Shown: one piece after another, positions 4,725 to 23,235 of the stretch | Layout of the letters: each line of letters starts with the position of its first letter | Position numbering within the stretch: the stretch's first letter is position 1 | Assembly: GCA_913061235.1 (NCBI GenBank) | Contig: CAJXTB010000021.1 | Span: 1 to 64,000, forward strand | Direction: 5' to 3' | Length of the DNA stretch: 64,000 nt | DNA from: an uncultured Pseudomonadota bacterium | GTDB lineage: Bacteria > Myxococcota_A > UBA796 > GCA-2862545 | Position numbers and translations under genes: made by a program | The notes under the pieces: model-generated | Told to the model about the DNA's origin: nothing | Database searches by the model: none | The model's input: the letters and a program-made list of their open reading frames with translations, nothing else

Positions 4725-4818
4725 CCTCGAAGCGTCCCTGCCCAGATTATTCGCTGCAGCAAGGAAAGTGACATTTATTCCCCAGAGAGTTGTGGTAGCA
4801 ACCGGGCGGGGAGAAATC

Positions 4819-6546
4819 ATGATTATCACTTTGCTTGCTCTTGTTGTCAGTACCGCCAGTGCTGCGGACTCCAATGAAGACGGATGCGTCGATTCGTTTT
4901 TCGACGCGAACACCGCCTGCGTGTCGACTGACGCCACGACCACCACCGGTCTGGTTGTGGGCAGTGGGGCGACGGTCGGTGTGTACGTGGACATTGGACC
5001 GGACGTGACTCTGGGTCAGGGAGTGGTCGTTGCGCCACGCGCTACCATTGCCGGACGAGTTGGTGAGCCCGGCTCCTCACAAATCGGTGACGACAGCATC
5101 ATCGGTCGCGGCGCCAGCCTCGGAGCGGACAGCCAGCTCGGCACGGACGTCATTGTGGGCCGCTTTACCCAGACGGGTGCGCGGTTTGACGCAGGCAACA
5201 ACGTTCATGTGGGCCAGGGAAGCGACATCGGTGACGATGTTGTGTTGAGCGCTGGAGCCGTTCTAGGGGCGTTGGTCTCGGTTGGCGACCACGCGGTCGT
5301 GCAGCCCGGAACGGTGATGGCTCGTGGTGTGCAGGTCGCTGACTCTGCGAACGCTTCTGAGCAGAGCGACATTGGCGGCATCATTGGACCTGACGTGTCG
5401 TTGGGCGCGGACGTGACGGTGGACCCCACGGCTCGCATTCGCAAGCGGACTGTCATTGGTGATGGCGTGACCATTGGTCAAAACACGCGTATCGCTCGCG
5501 ACGTGACCGTTGAATACAACGTCACCATCGGCGACAACGTCACGATTCGAGCCGGTGCTGTGATTGGTCACGGTGCGGTTGTGGCTGACGGAACGTTTGT
5601 CGGCAGTGCTGACGTCATTGAAGCAGCAGAGCTCTACGCCTTCACGTCGCACACCTTCACAACATGTGGCCTCACCGGTCGAACGGGACCTTCGCTTGCG
5701 ACCTGTCGTGCTTCCTACACGACGGACTGGGATGCGACGGATGCGTTTGGCATGACCACCAACGGCATTCAGCTGTGGACTGTGCCTCGGACCGGGCCGT
5801 ACCAAATCGTCGCAAAGGGGTCCTCTGGTGGGCGCGCCTCCAATAGTATCGGGCAGGCCAATGGCGCTGAAGTCACGGCAACGGTTCAGCTCATCGCTGG
5901 TGATGTCCTTCAGCTGCTTGTGGGCCAGCGCGGCGGCAACAATGCTACTCACGGCAATGAGAGCGGCGGTGGTGGCGGTACCTTCGTCGTGACCGCTTCT
6001 GACGTTCCGCTTGTTGTCGCTGGAGGCGCTGGAGGAGCGCCTTCAAGTGTCTACGGTGGTAGTTGTACTCGGACGGTTGCCACAGGCCACGGACAGGCGG
6101 GGACCAGTGGTGGCGCGTCCATTTGCGGTCATGTATCGGCAGCCGGCGGTGCAAACGGCTTGGGCGGATACGTCGCCGTAGCCAACCAGGACCGTCAGGG
6201 AGCTGCCGGAGGTGGCTTCGCGACCGCCGGCTCGTCAGGCTCGGGTCACTGCTCAACCTCTTTCGGTGGCGCAGCCTTTGTCCAAGGTGGCATTGGCGGT
6301 GACGGCCACGGTAGCTGCTATGGTCCTAGTTGGCCGGATGGTGGTTTCGGCGGCGGCGGAGCGGGTGCTCTCAGCTCTCCGGGCGGCGGTGGCGGCTACT
6401 CGGGTGGGGGGTCTGCTGGAGATTGGTCGTCGTATTCGAACTACGGCGGCGGCGGTGGCTCGTACACACTTGCAATGGCAACTGACGTCGTCATCGTGGC
6501 AGGGAGCAACACCGGCGAAGGCAGCGTGACCATCACCCAGCTCTGA
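4819..6546 (+). CDS. Secreted left-handed beta-helix protein with ALK-type glycine-rich domain
   Basis: A 575-residue secreted protein; ATG 4819 is preceded by GGGGAG. Residues 1-15 are a signal peptide (cleavage after STASA). Residues 17-25 (DSNEDGCVD) resemble a thrombospondin type-3/EF-like calcium loop. Residues about 45-265 are hexapeptide repeats of the [IV]-G-x-x-[AV]-x type, predicting a long left-handed parallel beta-helix. Residues about 279-575 form a Cys-containing glycine-rich domain with landmarks in the order of the ALK/LTK extracellular domain: FTTCG, GPS...C, GIQLWTVPRTGPYQI, LLVGQRG, GGGGGTFV, GGGGGYSGG and a GEGSVTI end. Hexapeptide helices are best known from cytosolic acyltransferases; here the signal peptide argues for a structural stalk. 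No lipobox or sorting tail is visible. Function is inferred: adhesion, matrix or surface display. The gene at 6745 is a partial paralogue. Confidence 0.85.
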   Translation: MIITLLALVVSTASAADSNEDGCVDSFFDANTACVSTDATTTTGLVVGSGATVGVYVDIGPDVTLGQGVVVAPRATIAGRVGEPGSSQIGDDSIIGRGASLGADSQLGTDVIVGRFTQTGARFDAGNNVHVGQGSDIGDDVVLSAGAVLGALVSVGDHAVVQPGTVMARGVQVADSANASEQSDIGGIIGPDVSLGADVTVDPTARIRKRTVIGDGVTIGQNTRIARDVTVEYNVTIGDNVTIRAGAVIGHGAVVADGTFVGSADVIEAAELYAFTSHTFTTCGLTGRTGPSLATCRASYTTDWDATDAFGMTTNGIQLWTVPRTGPYQIVAKGSSGGRASNSIGQANGAEVTATVQLIAGDVLQLLVGQRGGNNATHGNESGGGGGTFVVTASDVPLVVAGGAGGAPSSVYGGSCTRTVATGHGQAGTSGGASICGHVSAAGGANGLGGYVAVANQDRQGAAGGGFATAGSSGSGHCSTSFGGAAFVQGGIGGDGHGSCYGPSWPDGGFGGGGAGALSSPGGGGGYSGGGSAGDWSSYSNYGGGGGSYTLAMATDVVIVAGSNTGEGSVTITQL

Positions 6547-7540
6547 TCGCGCCACCCCCGTCCGGTCTGTTTTCGACATGTCGGGCAGTTGTGTAGTTCG
6601 TCTCTTGCATTGCTGAACATCCCGTCGAGAGACAGCGACGTCGTCGGGAGTTCGCTACGTCTCTGTCTGGCGCTGGTTGTTGACGACCGCAATGGGGCTC
6701 TTGTTTCTCTGTTTGCTGTGCCAAAACACTTACAGGGAGAAACCATGATTACCACTTTGCTTGCTCTTGTTGTCAGTACCGCCAGTGCTGCAGACTCCAA
6801 TGAAGACGGATGCGTCGATTCGTTTTTCGACGCCAACAGTGTGTGCGTGTCCACGGACGCTACGATCGCTACAGGCCTGACTATCGGGAGTGGGGCCAGC
6901 GTTGCTGCGTTCGCGGACATCGGGCCTGACGTGACTCTCGGTCAGGGAGTGATTGTCGCCTCTCGAAGTATCATTGCAGGTCGGCTGGGAGAGCCCGGTG
7001 CCTCCGCTATTGGCAACAACAGTATTGTTGGACGTGCCGCCAGTATCGGAGTGGACAGTCAGATTGGAGCCGATGTGACTCTGGGCCGCAATGCCCAGAT
7101 GGGGGCTCGGCTGCAAGCAGGCGACACCGTCCAGGTCGGGTATGCGAACGACATTGGTGATGATGTTGAGTTGAGTGCAGGAGCCGTTCTGGGGGCATTG
7201 GTCTCGGTCGGCGACCACACGTTCGTACAGCCTGGCACAGTGATGGCCCGTGGTACGCAAGTTGCAGATGCTGCGAGTGCTCTCGAAGGCAGCGACATCG
7301 GCGGCATCATTGGGCCTGACGTGTCCATTGGGTCGGCAACCACGATCGATCCACTCGCGCGCATTCGCAAGCGGAGTACCATCGGGGACAACGTGACCAT
7401 TGGTCAAAACGTCCGTATCGCCCGTGACGTCACCGTTGAATATGATGCTATCATTGGTGACAACGTCACGATTCGGGCCGGTGCGGTGATTGGGCATGGA
7501 GCAACCCTGGTCGACGGCACGTTCGTTGGACGCGACGAAG
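4819..7540 (+). repeat. Tandem partial gene duplication (beta-helix stalk)
   Basis: The first about 267 codons of the gene at 4819 are repeated at 6745 with high DNA identity; the first 30 codons are nearly unchanged. Similarity stops abruptly where the beta-helix ends (near 5620 and 7540), after which the two encode unrelated heads. The boundary fits a recombination or head-replacement event. Confidence 0.8.
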
Positions 7541-7932
7541 TCATTGACCCGGTAGCGTCGGGGCTAGCTGTCGTCGCCCAACATACGTCTACAACATCGC
7601 CCTACCAGACGGTGTACCGATTGGAACCGCAAACCGTGCCGAGTAGCGGCGACGCCCGGGTCTGGTACCAGACGTCGTGCGAGGACGCTGGGCTTCGACC
7701 CGTGAGTTGCGACTACAATAACTGGGGCCCAAATTACAATGCCACTGCGTGGAATGCTGTGATTTTGGAGAAAACCTATTGGAGCTGCAACGTGTCGAGT
7801 GGCATCCAGTCTAGGACTGGGTGGTCGGGTGTGATTACTTTCCACGTCCCAAGCAGTGATGGAAACGGTATCTATGCAACCAGCGGAGAATCCAATGGTG
7901 GGGCCGTGGGCTCCATGGTCTGTACTGACTAG
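6745..7932 (+). CDS. Secreted left-handed beta-helix protein with a different C-terminal head
   Basis: A 395-residue paralogue of the preceding gene; ATG 6745 follows CAGGGAGAAACC. Signal peptide, calcium-loop-like motif (DSNEDGCVD) and hexapeptide beta-helix (to about residue 265) align with the upstream protein with high DNA identity, including the first 30 codons, which are almost unchanged. After the helix the two sequences diverge completely. This one carries about 125 residues rich in Ser, Thr, Asn, Trp and Tyr with five or so Cys, and no glycine-rich repeats. I do not recognise this head domain; the pattern suggests a small disulphide-bonded beta domain. It appears to be a stalk with a swapped head, probably extracellular. 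Confidence 0.83.
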   Translation: MITTLLALVVSTASAADSNEDGCVDSFFDANSVCVSTDATIATGLTIGSGASVAAFADIGPDVTLGQGVIVASRSIIAGRLGEPGASAIGNNSIVGRAASIGVDSQIGADVTLGRNAQMGARLQAGDTVQVGYANDIGDDVELSAGAVLGALVSVGDHTFVQPGTVMARGTQVADAASALEGSDIGGIIGPDVSIGSATTIDPLARIRKRSTIGDNVTIGQNVRIARDVTVEYDAIIGDNVTIRAGAVIGHGATLVDGTFVGRDEVIDPVASGLAVVAQHTSTTSPYQTVYRLEPQTVPSSGDARVWYQTSCEDAGLRPVSCDYNNWGPNYNATAWNAVILEKTYWSCNVSSGIQSRTGWSGVITFHVPSSDGNGIYATSGESNGGAVGSMVCTD

Positions 7933-17161: not shown

Positions 17162-17821
17162 TTGCGTTTCTGGTTTCTAGTGTTGCTGCCGGGTTGTTGC
17201 TCAACAGACTTCATCACAGGTGGAGGTGGCAGCGATGCCCCCGAGATTGGTGTGGGTGAGACTCGTGAGATTGTGACGCGTAGCCGGACCATAGGTGAGC
17301 TCATCAACGCTGGTTCCCAGCAAGGGCGTCCGGACCCACCCATGGAAGTCATGACGCGCAGCCAGTGCTCGAGCCTCTCCGACGGTGGTGAGGTCGACTC
17401 CAACGGTGTGACGGGTCGCATTGAGTGTGGCGAACAGCTCGTGGGCCATACCCGTGGCGGCGTTCAAGAGTTCGATACGCGCTTCTACGAAGCCAACTTT
17501 TGCACCCCAGCGACCACCGACCACAGCGGCGGAGACGAGCGTATCTACCGGCTGAGCGTGCCCGATGGCCGCTTGCGTCCGTGGGTCACCTTGGACACCC
17601 CGTGTGCTGACCTGGACCTTGCGGTCATCAAGTGGTCGGGCACGAGTATGCCGAGTGCTAGCAGCAGCGTGAACGACTGCGAGATGTTCCCGAAAGATGG
17701 GACGACTCGTGAAATCGTGGACGTCACCAGTGACCGCGCCACCGAGTGGTTGATCGTAGTCGAGGGCAAAGGCAGTGAAGAGGGTGCGTTTGGACTGACC
17801 GTCCAGTGCGTGCCCTGGTAA
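17162..17821 (+). CDS. Lipoprotein with PPC-like domain, paralogue 1
   Basis: A 219-residue protein starting at TTG 17162; GGGAGG lies exactly 5 bases upstream and no ATG precedes the lipobox. The signal peptide MRFWFLVLLPGC ends in Cys12. After a variable linker come about 165 residues closely shared with the gene at 18069, for example GSQQGRP, RSQCS, CGEQLVGHTRGGVQ, FDTRFYE and DGTTREIVDVTSDRATEWLI. The central section LDTPCADLDLAVIKWSG and the ending EEGAFGLTVQC recall bacterial pre-peptidase C-terminal (PPC) beta-sandwiches. Six conserved Cys suggest disulphides. Function unknown. Confidence 0.82.
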   Translation: MRFWFLVLLPGCCSTDFITGGGGSDAPEIGVGETREIVTRSRTIGELINAGSQQGRPDPPMEVMTRSQCSSLSDGGEVDSNGVTGRIECGEQLVGHTRGGVQEFDTRFYEANFCTPATTDHSGGDERIYRLSVPDGRLRPWVTLDTPCADLDLAVIKWSGTSMPSASSSVNDCEMFPKDGTTREIVDVTSDRATEWLIVVEGKGSEEGAFGLTVQCVPW

Positions 17822-18068
17822 GCGAATGCTGCACCGACGTGGGTGAGAATCCTCGGAGGTCGCGGCTGTCAGCTGGAACTGCAAGCTGTGAGAAAGGGTA
17901 GGGGCTTACCTGCTTTCTTGGTGAAAAGCGGCTAGTAGGGCTGCATGACAGCCGTCGGAGACGGCGCCTATGTCTGACGTCTCATCGCTCACAGCGCCGG
18001 TTGCGTAGCCAACTGCGTGAACCGAAATCAGCAGACGGCCCGCCGACGCTATTTTTTGGGAGAACCAC

Positions 18069-18758
18069 ATGCTCTTGCTCTTGGCCCTACTCACTGGCTG
18101 CGACTACCTTCCTGGCGCATCCAACTCGACCCCTGAACCAGTGCCTGCGACGGTTCGTGAGCCGCAGCCTCTGCCGGCTGTAGGTGAGACCCGAGCTGCA
18201 CCGGGGGCAGAGCCCCAACCGGGCAATGGGCACGTCTTGATTCATCAAGGCTCCCAGCAAGGCCGCCCAACACCGCCGGAAGAAGTCATCGTCCGTAGCC
18301 AGTGCTCCGAAGTCACGGACGGCGGTTCGGTTGACGCCAACGGAATCAGTGGACGGCTTGGCTGTGGCGAGCAGCTCGTGGGCCACACCCGCGGTGGTGT
18401 TCAGGCCTTCGACACGCGCTTCTACGAGCACCACTTCTGTACGCCCGCCACCACCAACCACGATGGCGGAGATGAGCGCATCTACCGGATGAGCATTCCA
18501 GAGGGCCGCCTGCGTCCATGGGTCACCCTCGACACTCCCTGTGCGGACCTGGACCTGACCATCATCAAGTGGTCGGGAACTGAGCTACCGACCTATGATA
18601 CCTCCGTCGCTGACTGCGAAATGTTCCCGAAGGACGGTACTACGCGTGAGATCGTAGACGTCACCAGCGACCGGGCCACGGAGTGGCTCATCGTCGTAGA
18701 GGGCAAAGATGCGGAAGAAGGGGCCTTTGGTCTGACCGTTCAGTGCATGCCCTGGTAG
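18069..18758 (+). CDS. Lipoprotein with PPC-like domain, paralogue 2
   Basis: A 229-residue tandem paralogue of the gene at 17162. ATG 18069 follows GGGAG at 7 bases. Signal peptide MLLLLALLTGC, lipobox L-T-G-C. The linker (about residues 14-60) is Pro-rich and unlike that of paralogue 1, while the domain from GSQQGRP to the C-terminal MPW is almost unchanged, with replacements mainly between like residues. Conservation of every Cys and of DCEMFPKDGTTREIVD implies selection on the folded domain. Likely displayed on the outer membrane. It converges with the methyltransferase gene, 3 bases apart. Confidence 0.82.
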   Translation: MLLLLALLTGCDYLPGASNSTPEPVPATVREPQPLPAVGETRAAPGAEPQPGNGHVLIHQGSQQGRPTPPEEVIVRSQCSEVTDGGSVDANGISGRLGCGEQLVGHTRGGVQAFDTRFYEHHFCTPATTNHDGGDERIYRMSIPEGRLRPWVTLDTPCADLDLTIIKWSGTELPTYDTSVADCEMFPKDGTTREIVDVTSDRATEWLIVVEGKDAEEGAFGLTVQCMPW

Positions 18759-19518: not shown

Positions 19519-19639
19519 CGGTTTTTGAGATACACTGCTCGCCAACGAACAATTGGGGAGAAGCAATGATTCGGTGTAGTTTTTTGGTCTGGATGGTCTC
19601 GGGTTCGGTCGCTTTTGCAGCGGACAGCAACGGAGACGG
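19519..19639 (+). repeat. Perfect 121-bp direct repeat, copy 1 (promoter region, RBS and signal-peptide codons)
   Basis: This 121-base stretch is identical to 21467-21587. It contains a GATACACT -10-like element, the GGGGAG ribosome site and the first 24 codons of the beta-helix genes. Farther upstream and downstream the two copies differ. Perfect identity here with scattered, mainly silent changes later suggests a recent duplication, gene conversion or strong constraint on the leader region. Confidence 0.85.
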
Positions 19640-21293
19640 GTGCCAAGACGAATACGCCGGGAACGGTGCATGTGTCGACGTAGACGCTACGGTCGACGGC
19701 ACAAGCACAGTGGGCTCAAGCGCGGTTGTGCTGGAACAGGCCACTGTGGGACCTGAAGTTGCTCTGGGCTCGAGTGTCTTCGTCGGGGCTCGCGCAACGC
19801 TCGCCGGACGCGTTGCCCACGCAAGCAACCCGCTGCCGGTTGGAAACAACACCATCATTGGTCGGGGCACTCAGCTTGGAGCTGACCATGCGCTCGGGGA
19901 TGACGTCACTATTGGTAGATCCGCCGTTGTCGGAGCTCGCCTTACGGTGGCTGCTGGCGGCAGCCTTGGGTACGCCTCCCAGGTCGGCACAGACGTCACG
20001 GTCGGCGCCAACGCCGTAGCCGGCAACTTGGTCTCGCTTGGGGACTTTGCAACGCTCGGGGACAACGCCGTTGTGTCTCGCGGCGTCACCATTCTGGACG
20101 GTGCGAATTCTGGCAATGGGGCCACGGTCGACGGTATCGTTGGACCGGAAGTTCTCATCCGTGCAGGGGCGCGCATTGAACAGGGCGCGCGTGTCCGTAA
20201 GTTGGCTGAGATCGGTGAAGGTGCGGCCATTGAGTCGACAGGTCGCGTGGGTCGCGGCGCGGTAATCCAGGCTGGAGCTACCGTCTTCGGACGCGTCGCT
20301 GCCAACGCCACGGTCGGCGATGGCGCGACGGTAGAGGCTGGCGCAATCGTCGCGCGTGGCGGCGAAGTGTGCGCGGGGAACACGCTTCCTACGGGCTCAC
20401 AAGTGTTGGGCGATGGCACATGGCCGGCCGAAGGGTGTTCGGTTGCATCGTGCAAAGACATCTTGGCGAATGATTCCGGGGCTGCCGACGACTACTACGA
20501 TGTTGATTTCGACGGCGATGGGCCGAACGCTCCGGTCTCCGTGTGGTGTGACATGAGTGGCGGCGGCATCACGCGTCCAGCGCCAGGAGAGGCCTTCCGT
20601 ATTGATCTGTCCGGCCAACCCGTTGTGCTGGACGTGCCCGCAGACACGACGACAGTGTTTCAGTTCGAGCTGTACGGCGCCTCTGGCGGCACCGGTCAGG
20701 GCTCGAATGGCGGAACGGGTGGGCGTACGCTCGGAGACGTTGAGGTTGGACCTGGCGATACGCTGACGGTCTTCGTTGGCGGTCAGGGCTCGGCGGGTGG
20801 TTCAGCGGATATCGGAGATTGTAATACAAGAACTGGCGGATACAACGGTGGTGGTCGTGGCTCGCGAGGAGGCTCGGGTGGTGGTGGCGCGACAGATGTC
20901 CGCCTTGGTGGCGTGTCGCTGTCTGACCGCGTGCTCGTCGCTGGCGGCGGCGGTGGCTGTGGCTACAACAACTGCACCTATGCTGGCGGTGCCGGTGGCG
21001 GAGTGAACGGCTTGAACGGAATCGCTGGCTCTGGCAGGAATCCAGGACATGGCGCCACCCAGAACGCTGGAGGGGCTGGCGGCAACGCAGGAACCTTCGG
21101 ACAGGGTGGCATTGGCCAACACTGCAATGACAACGGTGGCGGTGGCGGCGGCTGGTATGGCGGCGGTGCTGGCTTTACTGCCAATGAGCCTGGCGGCGGC
21201 GGCTCCGGATACCTTGGAGCTGGGGTCACCAATGGAACGACATCAACGTCGTCTCACAGCGGCAACGGCTGGCTTGAGTACACCCTCCAGTAG
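19566..21293 (+). CDS. Secreted beta-helix protein with fibrinogen-type motif and glycine-rich domain, copy 1
   Basis: A 575-residue protein from ATG 19566 (GGGGAG 5 bases upstream). Signal peptide to about residue 18 (VAFA), calcium-loop-like DSNGDGCQDE, then hexapeptide beta-helix to about residue 275, homologous to the proteins at 4819 and 6745 but clearly more distant. Residues 295-335 (SCKDILANDSGAADDYYDVD and VSVWCDMSGGG) match the N-terminal part of fibrinogen C-terminal-type domains (S-C-x-[ED]-[IL]-L ... V-x-C-D-M). Residues 345-575 are a glycine-rich domain with FQFELYGASGG, GGGGATDVRLGG, VLVAGGGGG and a final HSGNGWLEYTL, the Gly_rich (PF12810-type) layout. Probably extracellular; function unknown. 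The tandem copy starts 220 bases after its stop. Confidence 0.85.
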   Translation: MIRCSFLVWMVSGSVAFAADSNGDGCQDEYAGNGACVDVDATVDGTSTVGSSAVVLEQATVGPEVALGSSVFVGARATLAGRVAHASNPLPVGNNTIIGRGTQLGADHALGDDVTIGRSAVVGARLTVAAGGSLGYASQVGTDVTVGANAVAGNLVSLGDFATLGDNAVVSRGVTILDGANSGNGATVDGIVGPEVLIRAGARIEQGARVRKLAEIGEGAAIESTGRVGRGAVIQAGATVFGRVAANATVGDGATVEAGAIVARGGEVCAGNTLPTGSQVLGDGTWPAEGCSVASCKDILANDSGAADDYYDVDFDGDGPNAPVSVWCDMSGGGITRPAPGEAFRIDLSGQPVVLDVPADTTTVFQFELYGASGGTGQGSNGGTGGRTLGDVEVGPGDTLTVFVGGQGSAGGSADIGDCNTRTGGYNGGGRGSRGGSGGGGATDVRLGGVSLSDRVLVAGGGGGCGYNNCTYAGGAGGGVNGLNGIAGSGRNPGHGATQNAGGAGGNAGTFGQGGIGQHCNDNGGGGGGWYGGGAGFTANEPGGGGSGYLGAGVTNGTTSTSSHSGNGWLEYTLQ

Positions 21294-21312
21294 GGGGCAC
21301 TGGCTCGCATGA

Positions 21313-21340
21313 GGGCGGCGTGCATGAGGCAACGCCGCCC
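21313..21340 (+). terminator. GC-rich hairpin after the first copy, no T-run
   Basis: A perfect 9-bp stem (GGGCGGCGT, ten-base loop, ACGCCGCCC) begins 20 bases after the stop of the gene at 19566. It occupies the same position as the better terminator after the tandem copy (23251) and starts with the same ATGAGGGCGGCGT. It lacks a T tract, so it may only stabilise or weakly terminate the transcript. Confidence 0.5.
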
Positions 21341-21466
21341 CGCTGGTCTCAGTGGATTGCATCCCTTGTTGGTGACTCGCGTTCACGTCGGTATCTCTGA
21401 CCAACTGGGTGGTTTGTTTGCGTACCAAACACCCACCCCGCGCTCGCCAAGCTGCTTCGCTGATCA

Positions 21467-21587
21467 CGGTTTTTGAGATACACTGCTCGCCAACGAACAA
21501 TTGGGGAGAAGCAATGATTCGGTGTAGTTTTTTGGTCTGGATGGTCTCGGGTTCGGTCGCTTTTGCAGCGGACAGCAACGGAGACGG
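21467..21587 (+). repeat. Perfect 121-bp direct repeat, copy 2
   Basis: Identical to 19519-19639. Carries the -10-like element, ribosome site and start of the second tandem gene. A looser similarity (ACTGGGTGGTTTG and ACACCCACC, a short imperfect inverted repeat) begins about 60-70 bases farther upstream in both copies. Confidence 0.85.
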
Positions 21588-23235
21588 ATGCCAAGACGAA
21601 TACGCTGGGAACGGCGCATGTGTGGACGTGGACGCTACGGTCGACGGCACAAGCACAGTGGGCTCAAGCGCGGTTGTTCTGGAACAGGCCACTGTCGGAC
21701 CTGAAGTTGCTCTGGGCTCGAGTGTGTTCGTCGGGGCTCGTGCAACGCTCGCCGGCCGGGTCGCCCACGCGAGCAACCCGCTGCCGGTTGGAAACAACAC
21801 CGTCATTGGTCGCGGCACTCAGCTCGGCGCTGATCATGCGCTTGGAGATGACGTCACTATTGGCCGGTCCGCTGTTGCCGGGGCTCGCCTGACCGTGGCT
21901 GCTGGCGGTAGCCTTGGGTACGCAGCTCAGGTAGGCACGGATGTCACCGTTGGAGCCAATGCCGTAGCTGGCAACTTGGTCACGCTTGGGGACTTCGCAA
22001 CCCTAGGGGACAACGCAGTTATCTCTCGCAGTGTCACCATTTTGGACGGTGCCAACTCCGGCAATGGGGCTACGGTTGACGGCATCGTTGGACCCGAAGT
22101 TCTCATTGCCGCGGGCGCGCGCATTGAACAGGGCGCGCGTGTACGCAAGCAGGCTGAGATTGGCGAAGGTGCGGCCATTGAGTCGACGGGTCGCGTAGGT
22201 CGCGGCGCCGTAATCCAGGCTGGAGCTACCGTCTTTGGACGCGTCGCTGCAAACGCCACGGTCGGCGATGGCGCTACGGTAGAGGCTGGTGCAATCGTTG
22301 CGCGTGGCGGCGAAGTGTGCGCGGGGAATACGCTTCCGACGGGCTCGCAGGTGTTGGGCGACGGCACATGGCCGGCTGAGGGGTGCTCGGTCGCCTCGTG
22401 CAAAGATATCTTAACGAATGATTCCGGGGCTGCCGACGACTACTACGACGTGGATTTCGACGGCGACGGGCCGAACGCTGCGGTCTCCGTGTGGTGTGAC
22501 ATGACCGGCGGTGGCATCACGCGTCCGGCGCCGGGCGAGCGGTTTCGCATTGACCTGACCGGCCAACCCGTCGAGCTGGCAGTGCCGGTAGACACGACCA
22601 CGGTGTTTCAGTTCGAGTTGTACGGCGCTTCTGGGGGCACCGGGCTGACCCAGAATGGAGGGGCGGGCGGTCGTGCTGTCGGAGCGGTTGAGGTGGGACC
22701 TGGGGATACGCTGACGGTCTTCGTGGGTGCCCAGGGTGCAAGTGCCGGAACAGCGGATACCGGAGCCTGCAACACACGAACGGGTGGGTACAACGGCGGT
22801 GGTCGCGGGTCACAGGGCGGCTCGGGTGGCGGTGGCGCGACAGATGTTCGCCTCGGTGGCGCGTCGTTGTCTGACCGCGTACTCGTCGCTGGTGGCGGCG
22901 GTGGCTGTGGCTACAACTCCTGTGTTTATGCTGGCGGCGCCGGTGGCGGCGCGAATGGTTCGAACGGGACTGGCGGTAGCAGTCCCGGAGCAGGTGCCAC
23001 CCAGAACGCGGGTGGGGGTGGCGGAAATGCTGGAACGTTCGGCGTGGGTGGTACAGGTACACCCTGCAATGACAACGGCGGCGGTGGCGGCGGCTGGTAC
23101 GGAGGCGGTGCTGGCTACACGAGCAACTCACCAGGCGGCGGCGGCTCCGGTTATCTGGCCCCCGAGGTGACCGGAGGCAGTACGTCTACCTCTTCTCACG
23201 CCGGCCATGGCTGGCTTGAGTACGCCTTGCAGTAG
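21514..23235 (+). CDS. Secreted beta-helix protein with fibrinogen-type motif and glycine-rich domain, copy 2
   Basis: A 573-residue near-duplicate of the gene at 19566, using the equivalent ATG 21514. Signal peptide, calcium-loop-like motif, hexapeptide helix and the SCKDIL...VSVWCDM segment are almost residue-identical (for example I/V, S/T and A/R swaps), and most DNA differences there are silent. Divergence concentrates in the glycine-rich domain, where short indels occur (for example around residues 485-500 and 545-560). Head variability on a constant stalk resembles surface proteins under diversifying pressure, although no dN/dS value can be calculated here. A strong intrinsic terminator follows at 23251. 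Confidence 0.85.
   Translation: MIRCSFLVWMVSGSVAFAADSNGDGCQDEYAGNGACVDVDATVDGTSTVGSSAVVLEQATVGPEVALGSSVFVGARATLAGRVAHASNPLPVGNNTVIGRGTQLGADHALGDDVTIGRSAVAGARLTVAAGGSLGYAAQVGTDVTVGANAVAGNLVTLGDFATLGDNAVISRSVTILDGANSGNGATVDGIVGPEVLIAAGARIEQGARVRKQAEIGEGAAIESTGRVGRGAVIQAGATVFGRVAANATVGDGATVEAGAIVARGGEVCAGNTLPTGSQVLGDGTWPAEGCSVASCKDILTNDSGAADDYYDVDFDGDGPNAAVSVWCDMTGGGITRPAPGERFRIDLTGQPVELAVPVDTTTVFQFELYGASGGTGLTQNGGAGGRAVGAVEVGPGDTLTVFVGAQGASAGTADTGACNTRTGGYNGGGRGSQGGSGGGGATDVRLGGASLSDRVLVAGGGGGCGYNSCVYAGGAGGGANGSNGTGGSSPGAGATQNAGGGGGNAGTFGVGGTGTPCNDNGGGGGGWYGGGAGYTSNSPGGGGSGYLAPEVTGGSTSTSSHAGHGWLEYALQ

Follow-up and report, generated by a model that had tools for sequence, protein, structure and literature searches.

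Results

A secreted protein with a beta-helical stalk and a glycine-rich head

The window, i.e., the whole stretch of 64,000 nucleotides analyzed here, contains an ORF at 4819-6546 that begins with an ATG at 4819, ends with its stop codon at 6546 and encodes a protein of 575 residues (protein 4819). A signal peptide is followed by a cap with two cysteines, a hexapeptide beta-helix stalk and a glycine-rich head of about 300 residues (Table 1). A Pfam scan of the protein returned hexapeptide/LbH families only, and neither a tyrosine kinase, a transmembrane helix nor an EGF-like module. Judged by eye, the cap with its DxNxDG loop resembles a short calcium-binding thrombospondin-3-like loop. Some related proteins in the same genome, among them L073 and L070, start with a thrombospondin-3-like DxDxDGxxD repeat in place of the short cap.

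Table 1. Features of the gene for protein 4819 and of its paralogues in the window.
Feature	Position	Strand	Basis
GGGGAG ribosome-binding-site-like motif, common in the stalk family	4808..4813	+	sequence, family survey
Signal peptide MIITLLALVVSTASAA, likely signal peptidase I type	4819..4866	+	sequence and regex survey; type judged by eye
N-terminal cap DSNxDGCxDxxxxANxACV, two conserved Cys	4867..4926	+	alignments
Hexapeptide stalk, left-handed beta-helix class	4927..5622	+	Pfam Hexapep, PDB matches, strand pattern in model
ALK/LTK-type TG head: TNF-like sandwich and glycine-rich lattice	5623..6543	+	profile, single-sequence and structure comparison
Tandem paralogue, stalk with 73% amino acid identity, unrelated head	6745..7932	+	sequence comparison
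Paralogue: stalk, fibrinogen-like GGGW motif and PF12810 head (E 1.9e-26)	19566..21293	+	
Near-copy of the gene at 19566..21293, same architecture (PF12810 E 6.9e-26)	21514..23235	+	

The stalk matches Pfam Hexapep at 8.6e-29 and, in the PDB, LpxD, GlmU and LpxA. The signal peptide and long hexapeptide helix proposed in an earlier sequence-only reading of this DNA are both present. The predicted full-length model shows a regular strand pattern along the stalk, which would comprise about 13 coils if each has 18 residues. The head is poor and unusable in this full-length AlphaFold model, and the Foldseek matches that it gave, to other beta-helices, were weak; we therefore base the stalk's handedness on sequence. 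Enzymes with a hexapeptide beta-helix are usually trimers.

The hexapeptide repeats are shared with the LbH acyltransferases LpxD, LpxA and GlmU, and the matches to LpxD/GlmU-type models could suggest that protein 4819 is a secreted hexapeptide acyltransferase with an accessory domain. However, all acyltransferase models scored far below their curated cut-offs (76.7 bits vs 207 for the best enzyme model), the alignment of the stalk family contains no invariant His, and the stalk exists in about 95 copies with exchanged heads. We regard an enzyme as highly improbable. Unlike the acyltransferases, protein 4819 is secreted, lacks enzyme features and would use the repeats as a rod.

The head is an ALK/LTK-type domain

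The sequence-only reading had recognized the landmarks of the ALK/LTK glycine-rich domain in the C-terminal 300 residues or so, and all of these motifs are found in frame and in the order given, including FTTCG (5653-5667), GIQLWTVP (5764-5787), GGGGGTFV (5965-5988) and GEGSVTI, which ends at 6534. The proposed extent of 5655-6546 is right in running to the stop, but the domain begins slightly earlier, at about 5641-5650.

A head profile was built from 15 aligned heads from the same genome and from relatives in the family and order. Against the PDB, this profile matched ALK, LTK and SCD-2 with E-values down to 1.6e-31 over positions 4-282 of 283, and at E<=10 it found nine ALK/LTK-family sequences and one other match (E=0.27). 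With the single head sequence as query, LTK was matched at 3.4e-13, and correcting for composition cost only 2.9 bits. In an AlphaFold model of the head (pLDDT 81.5, pTM 0.87), the predicted fold gave confident Foldseek matches to ALK/LTK-family chains only (E 8e-15). Comparison by VIA-align gave Z-scores of about 33 for human LTK and ALK (LTK 33.4; 2.4 A over 260 residues) and 23.6 for nematode SCD-2. Phage tail proteins scored 7-8, and TNF ligands 4-5. Together, the profile, single-sequence and predicted-fold matches make the homology of the head to ALK/LTK secure, as had been proposed. The head of protein 4819 is a true TNF-like and polyglycine (TG) domain in its predicted fold.

A low-complexity artefact was considered as the cause of the ALK match. 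It is ruled out by the fold and by the N-terminal 58 residues of the head, which are not Gly-rich and match ALK on their own at 2.4e-5. An HMM search had been suggested as a check, and its outcome depends on the model: PF12810 (now named ALK_LTK_GRD) gives no match to protein 4819 at E<=10, while the head profile matches ALK/LTK. PF12810 matches 7 of the 15 aligned heads at E<=1, and its miss on protein 4819 is a limit of the Pfam model. The head profile and the comparison of structures, which had also been suggested, thus gave the profile match and the ALK/LTK-like predicted fold whose joint absence would have spoken against the domain.

The TG domains of human ALK and LTK (PDB 7LRZ, 7NX0, 7N00) resemble the head in predicted fold, with 32-33% identity over about 260 residues, and have the motifs FTTCG, GPxxxxC, GIQxWxVP and GGFGGGG in common with it. 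In contrast to the human receptors, protein 4819 has no kinase, transmembrane or EGF module, and the TG domain is mounted on a secreted beta-helix. The ALK loop Y966-V972 overlaps the site of the ligand ALKAL (PMC12354906). In the bacterial profile, unrelated residues stand opposite this YTPALKV loop, with the register read by eye. As the loop is not conserved, there is no reason to expect ALK's ligand for the bacterial head.

A family of about 95 stalk proteins in one genome

When the genome was searched with protein 4819, it yielded 103 matches, almost all of them in the stalk. These correspond to 96 distinct stalk ORFs (hereafter about 95); a few of these are cut by contig ends or have no head. 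Among 57 relatives of the family and order, the stalk profile found no other genome at E<=1e-20, and a further 283 genomes from the phylum gave none at E<=1e-22; the two sets overlap, and more diverged stalks in them could fall below these thresholds. The family thus appears to be lineage-specific and is so far found in one genome only. Among 14 named genomes, a Myxococcota MAG has the RuvB that comes nearest (66%) to that of this organism, which points to this phylum but to no finer placement.

About 80 of the 96 members look like plain signal-peptide proteins without an obvious cell anchor in a regex survey, and a few look like lipoproteins. In 52 of 91 family genes, the motif GGGGA[GA] occurs no more than 18 nt from the chosen start. 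The same motif precedes any candidate start in 4 of the 76 other ORFs of at least 200 residues in the window. Across the genome, this extended, GGGGAGA-like ribosome-site motif thus stands before many family genes, and it may reflect a common origin or common control of their 5' ends.

The heads are diverse, and most of their domains are of extracellular interaction types. Among 90 scanned heads, the bacterial GGGW fibrinogen-like model matched 38, Fibrinogen_C 27 and COLFI 17, in overlapping sets, and TLDc was found in five. Others carry EGF, laminin-G-like, cadherin-like, RCC1, FG-GAP, Big or CBM domains, and for more than 20 heads BLAST found no relative in the head set. The bacterial fibrinogen-like GGGW proteins (NF040941) represent a sister tip type within the family, not the head of protein 4819. 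In the tandem pair at 19566-23235, the GGGW motif lies between the stalk and the PF12810 head, and DNA identity is 92-99% at the 5' end and lower in the head. At 17162-18758, the window also contains a tandem pair of paralogous ORFs, each some 220 residues long, whose C-terminal parts are closely similar (DTRFYE.NFCTPATT...EGAFGLTVQC).

Heads are exchanged at the stalk/head junction

When head classes were placed on a stalk tree (a quick version), 24 changes were needed, compared to the least possible 6 and an average of 46.6 with shuffled labels; the heads are therefore partly inherited and repeatedly exchanged. Codon-aligned DNA of the pairs P0001/P0002, L020/L021 and L043/L064 is 61-96% identical along the stalk, and identity falls to background at or just past the stalk/head junction. 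L019 and L023, a tandem pair at about 78278-80794 of G000:C6, have stalks that are 100% identical across ten 25-codon windows (about 250 codons) and heads that have diverged to 53-80%. This pattern points to a stalk that was recently duplicated or homogenized by gene conversion.

The ALK-type domain in other prokaryotes and phages

The combination of head and stalk had been called unusual. An ALK-type domain on such a stalk is indeed unusual, but it is no one-off: this genome has six full ALK-type copies, of which four are joined to the hexapeptide stalk. The other two, in L005 and L059, are attached to another N-terminal part, which has the motif THQGRLLD and no Pfam name.

Of 189 genomes in the phylum, 32 encode the full domain, which also occurs in MAGs or genomes assigned to Bacteroidota, Verrucomicrobiota, Gemmatimonadota, Gracilibacteria and archaea. 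In prokaryotes it often lies at the C-terminal end of a protein or is repeated, with as many as five copies ahead of a sorting tail. Five ALK-type TG domains, with Ig-like domains between them and a Por-type sorting tail, are found in L126 (about 2,450 residues), which is encoded in a Bacteroidales MAG. Two 'Klebsiella' MAG matches (L134 and L146) look like binning errors; L134 and L113, the latter from a relative in the order, have the same C-terminal end. In our literature search we found no direct report of an ALK-type glycine-rich domain in bacteria, and a paper on ALK/LTK evolution does not mention bacteria.

The strong similarity to human ALK/LTK could mean that the head was acquired from an animal gene, but the diversity of the domain is far greater in prokaryotes. 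In addition, the human pair groups with two Bacteroidota sequences on a long branch, away from the head of protein 4819, in a tree that is unrooted and carries composition warnings. An animal source for the head is thus very unlikely.

The domain was also found in at least 80 viral contigs, where it is often C-terminal in phage proteins, and the phage relatives of the head are encoded beside structural and collagen-like genes. One of these phage proteins (L265, OQ999401.1, CDS of about 8.6 kb) has been deposited as 'ALK tyrosine kinase receptor', a misleading name evidently given because of the TG domain. Such frequent viral occurrence would fit a reading of protein 4819 as a derived phage tail fibre or tailocin tip that still works in a particle. 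However, the protein has a signal peptide and a beta-helix stalk, its nearest annotatable neighbors are housekeeping genes, e.g., ruvA/B/C-like ORFs, and about 95 copies are dispersed in the genome. We give a particle role hardly any weight.

Discussion

The family is best read as a set of secreted rods that retain their stalk and exchange their tips, with each tip binding a target, so that together they form a repertoire of binding specificities; we put the probability of this reading at about 0.65. The export signal, the predicted fold and homology of the head, the type of stalk, the size of the family, the diversity of the tips, the exchange at the junction and the presence of this domain in extracellular proteins of phages and other bacteria come from sequence and computation. 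The signal peptide would export protein 4819, and the Cys/Asp-rich cap and hexapeptide beta-helix would form a stiff stalk. The TG domain, with its TNF-like sandwich and extended polyglycine lattice, would provide a rigid tip. The most likely target for binding by this tip would be a glycan or protein of another cell, a particle or a matrix; the sequence-only reading had proposed that the head may be able to bind a ligand or another cell. With one stalk kept and tips exchanged across about 95 rods, the organism would gain a repertoire of binding specificities.

Published systems with TNF-like or Gly-rich recognition tips, together with export, a stiff stalk and exchangeable extracellular interaction tips, point to a role in recognition or adhesion. 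The tail fibre gp24 of phage Pam3 (PDB 7YPX, 7YFW) has a two-part tip, TNF-like and glycine-rich, as in protein 4819 (Z 7-8). The Pam3 tip is a proposed receptor binder and structurally similar to ALK (PMC9608196). It differs in being smaller (about 130 aligned residues), in having an alpha-helical shaft and in being part of a virion. In the MAT fibres of Bdellovibrio the tips are swapped, and one TNF-like tip binds GlcNAc/LPS (PMC10769870). The likeness lies in a kept N-terminal part, exchanged C-terminal tips that include TNF-like ones, and a chimeric repertoire in one genome. In contrast, MAT has 21 members that form intertwined trimeric beta-prism fibres, compared to about 95 members with a hexapeptide helix here. 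The stalk family may work in a manner analogous to MAT fibres, a likeness of design without a claim to MAT membership.

Surface display, binding, the targets and the oligomeric state of the rods are features that we infer. As most members have no obvious cell anchor, the rods might be released. Some tips are generic (RCC1, FG-GAP and Big domains), which counts against a recognition repertoire.

The main rival is a structural component of a matrix or cell coat. The rods would then assemble with one another or cross-link the extracellular matrix, with the Gly-rich head as a rigid packing module instead of a recognition tip. The resemblance of many heads to animal matrix domains (fibrinogen, fibrillar collagen C) and the lack of a clear cell anchor in most members fit this role. 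The strong diversity and exchange of the tips fit recognition better than one structural role, and the phage setting of the head's relatives also argues against a matrix component. Such a role is therefore possible but considerably less probable than recognition or adhesion by exchangeable tips.

The idea of an adhesin with a stalk and exchangeable tips is already known, and the larger finding is the mosaic family of about 95 rods. More tentatively, and with somewhat less than even odds, these rods would be the lineage's private recognition repertoire with one genuine ALK/LTK tip, and the animal ALK/LTK domain would have been recruited from an old pool of prokaryote and phage tips.

The domain with which a medically important pair of receptors binds its ligands is thus a common extracellular domain of prokaryotes and phages that the standard Pfam model can miss, and its wide occurrence there makes the origin of the domain in animals testable. 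In this lineage, a large mosaic family of secreted rods carries domains usually regarded as animal matrix modules. For the organism, about 95 rods with a common stalk and different tips would resemble a toolkit with which to grip other cells or surfaces.
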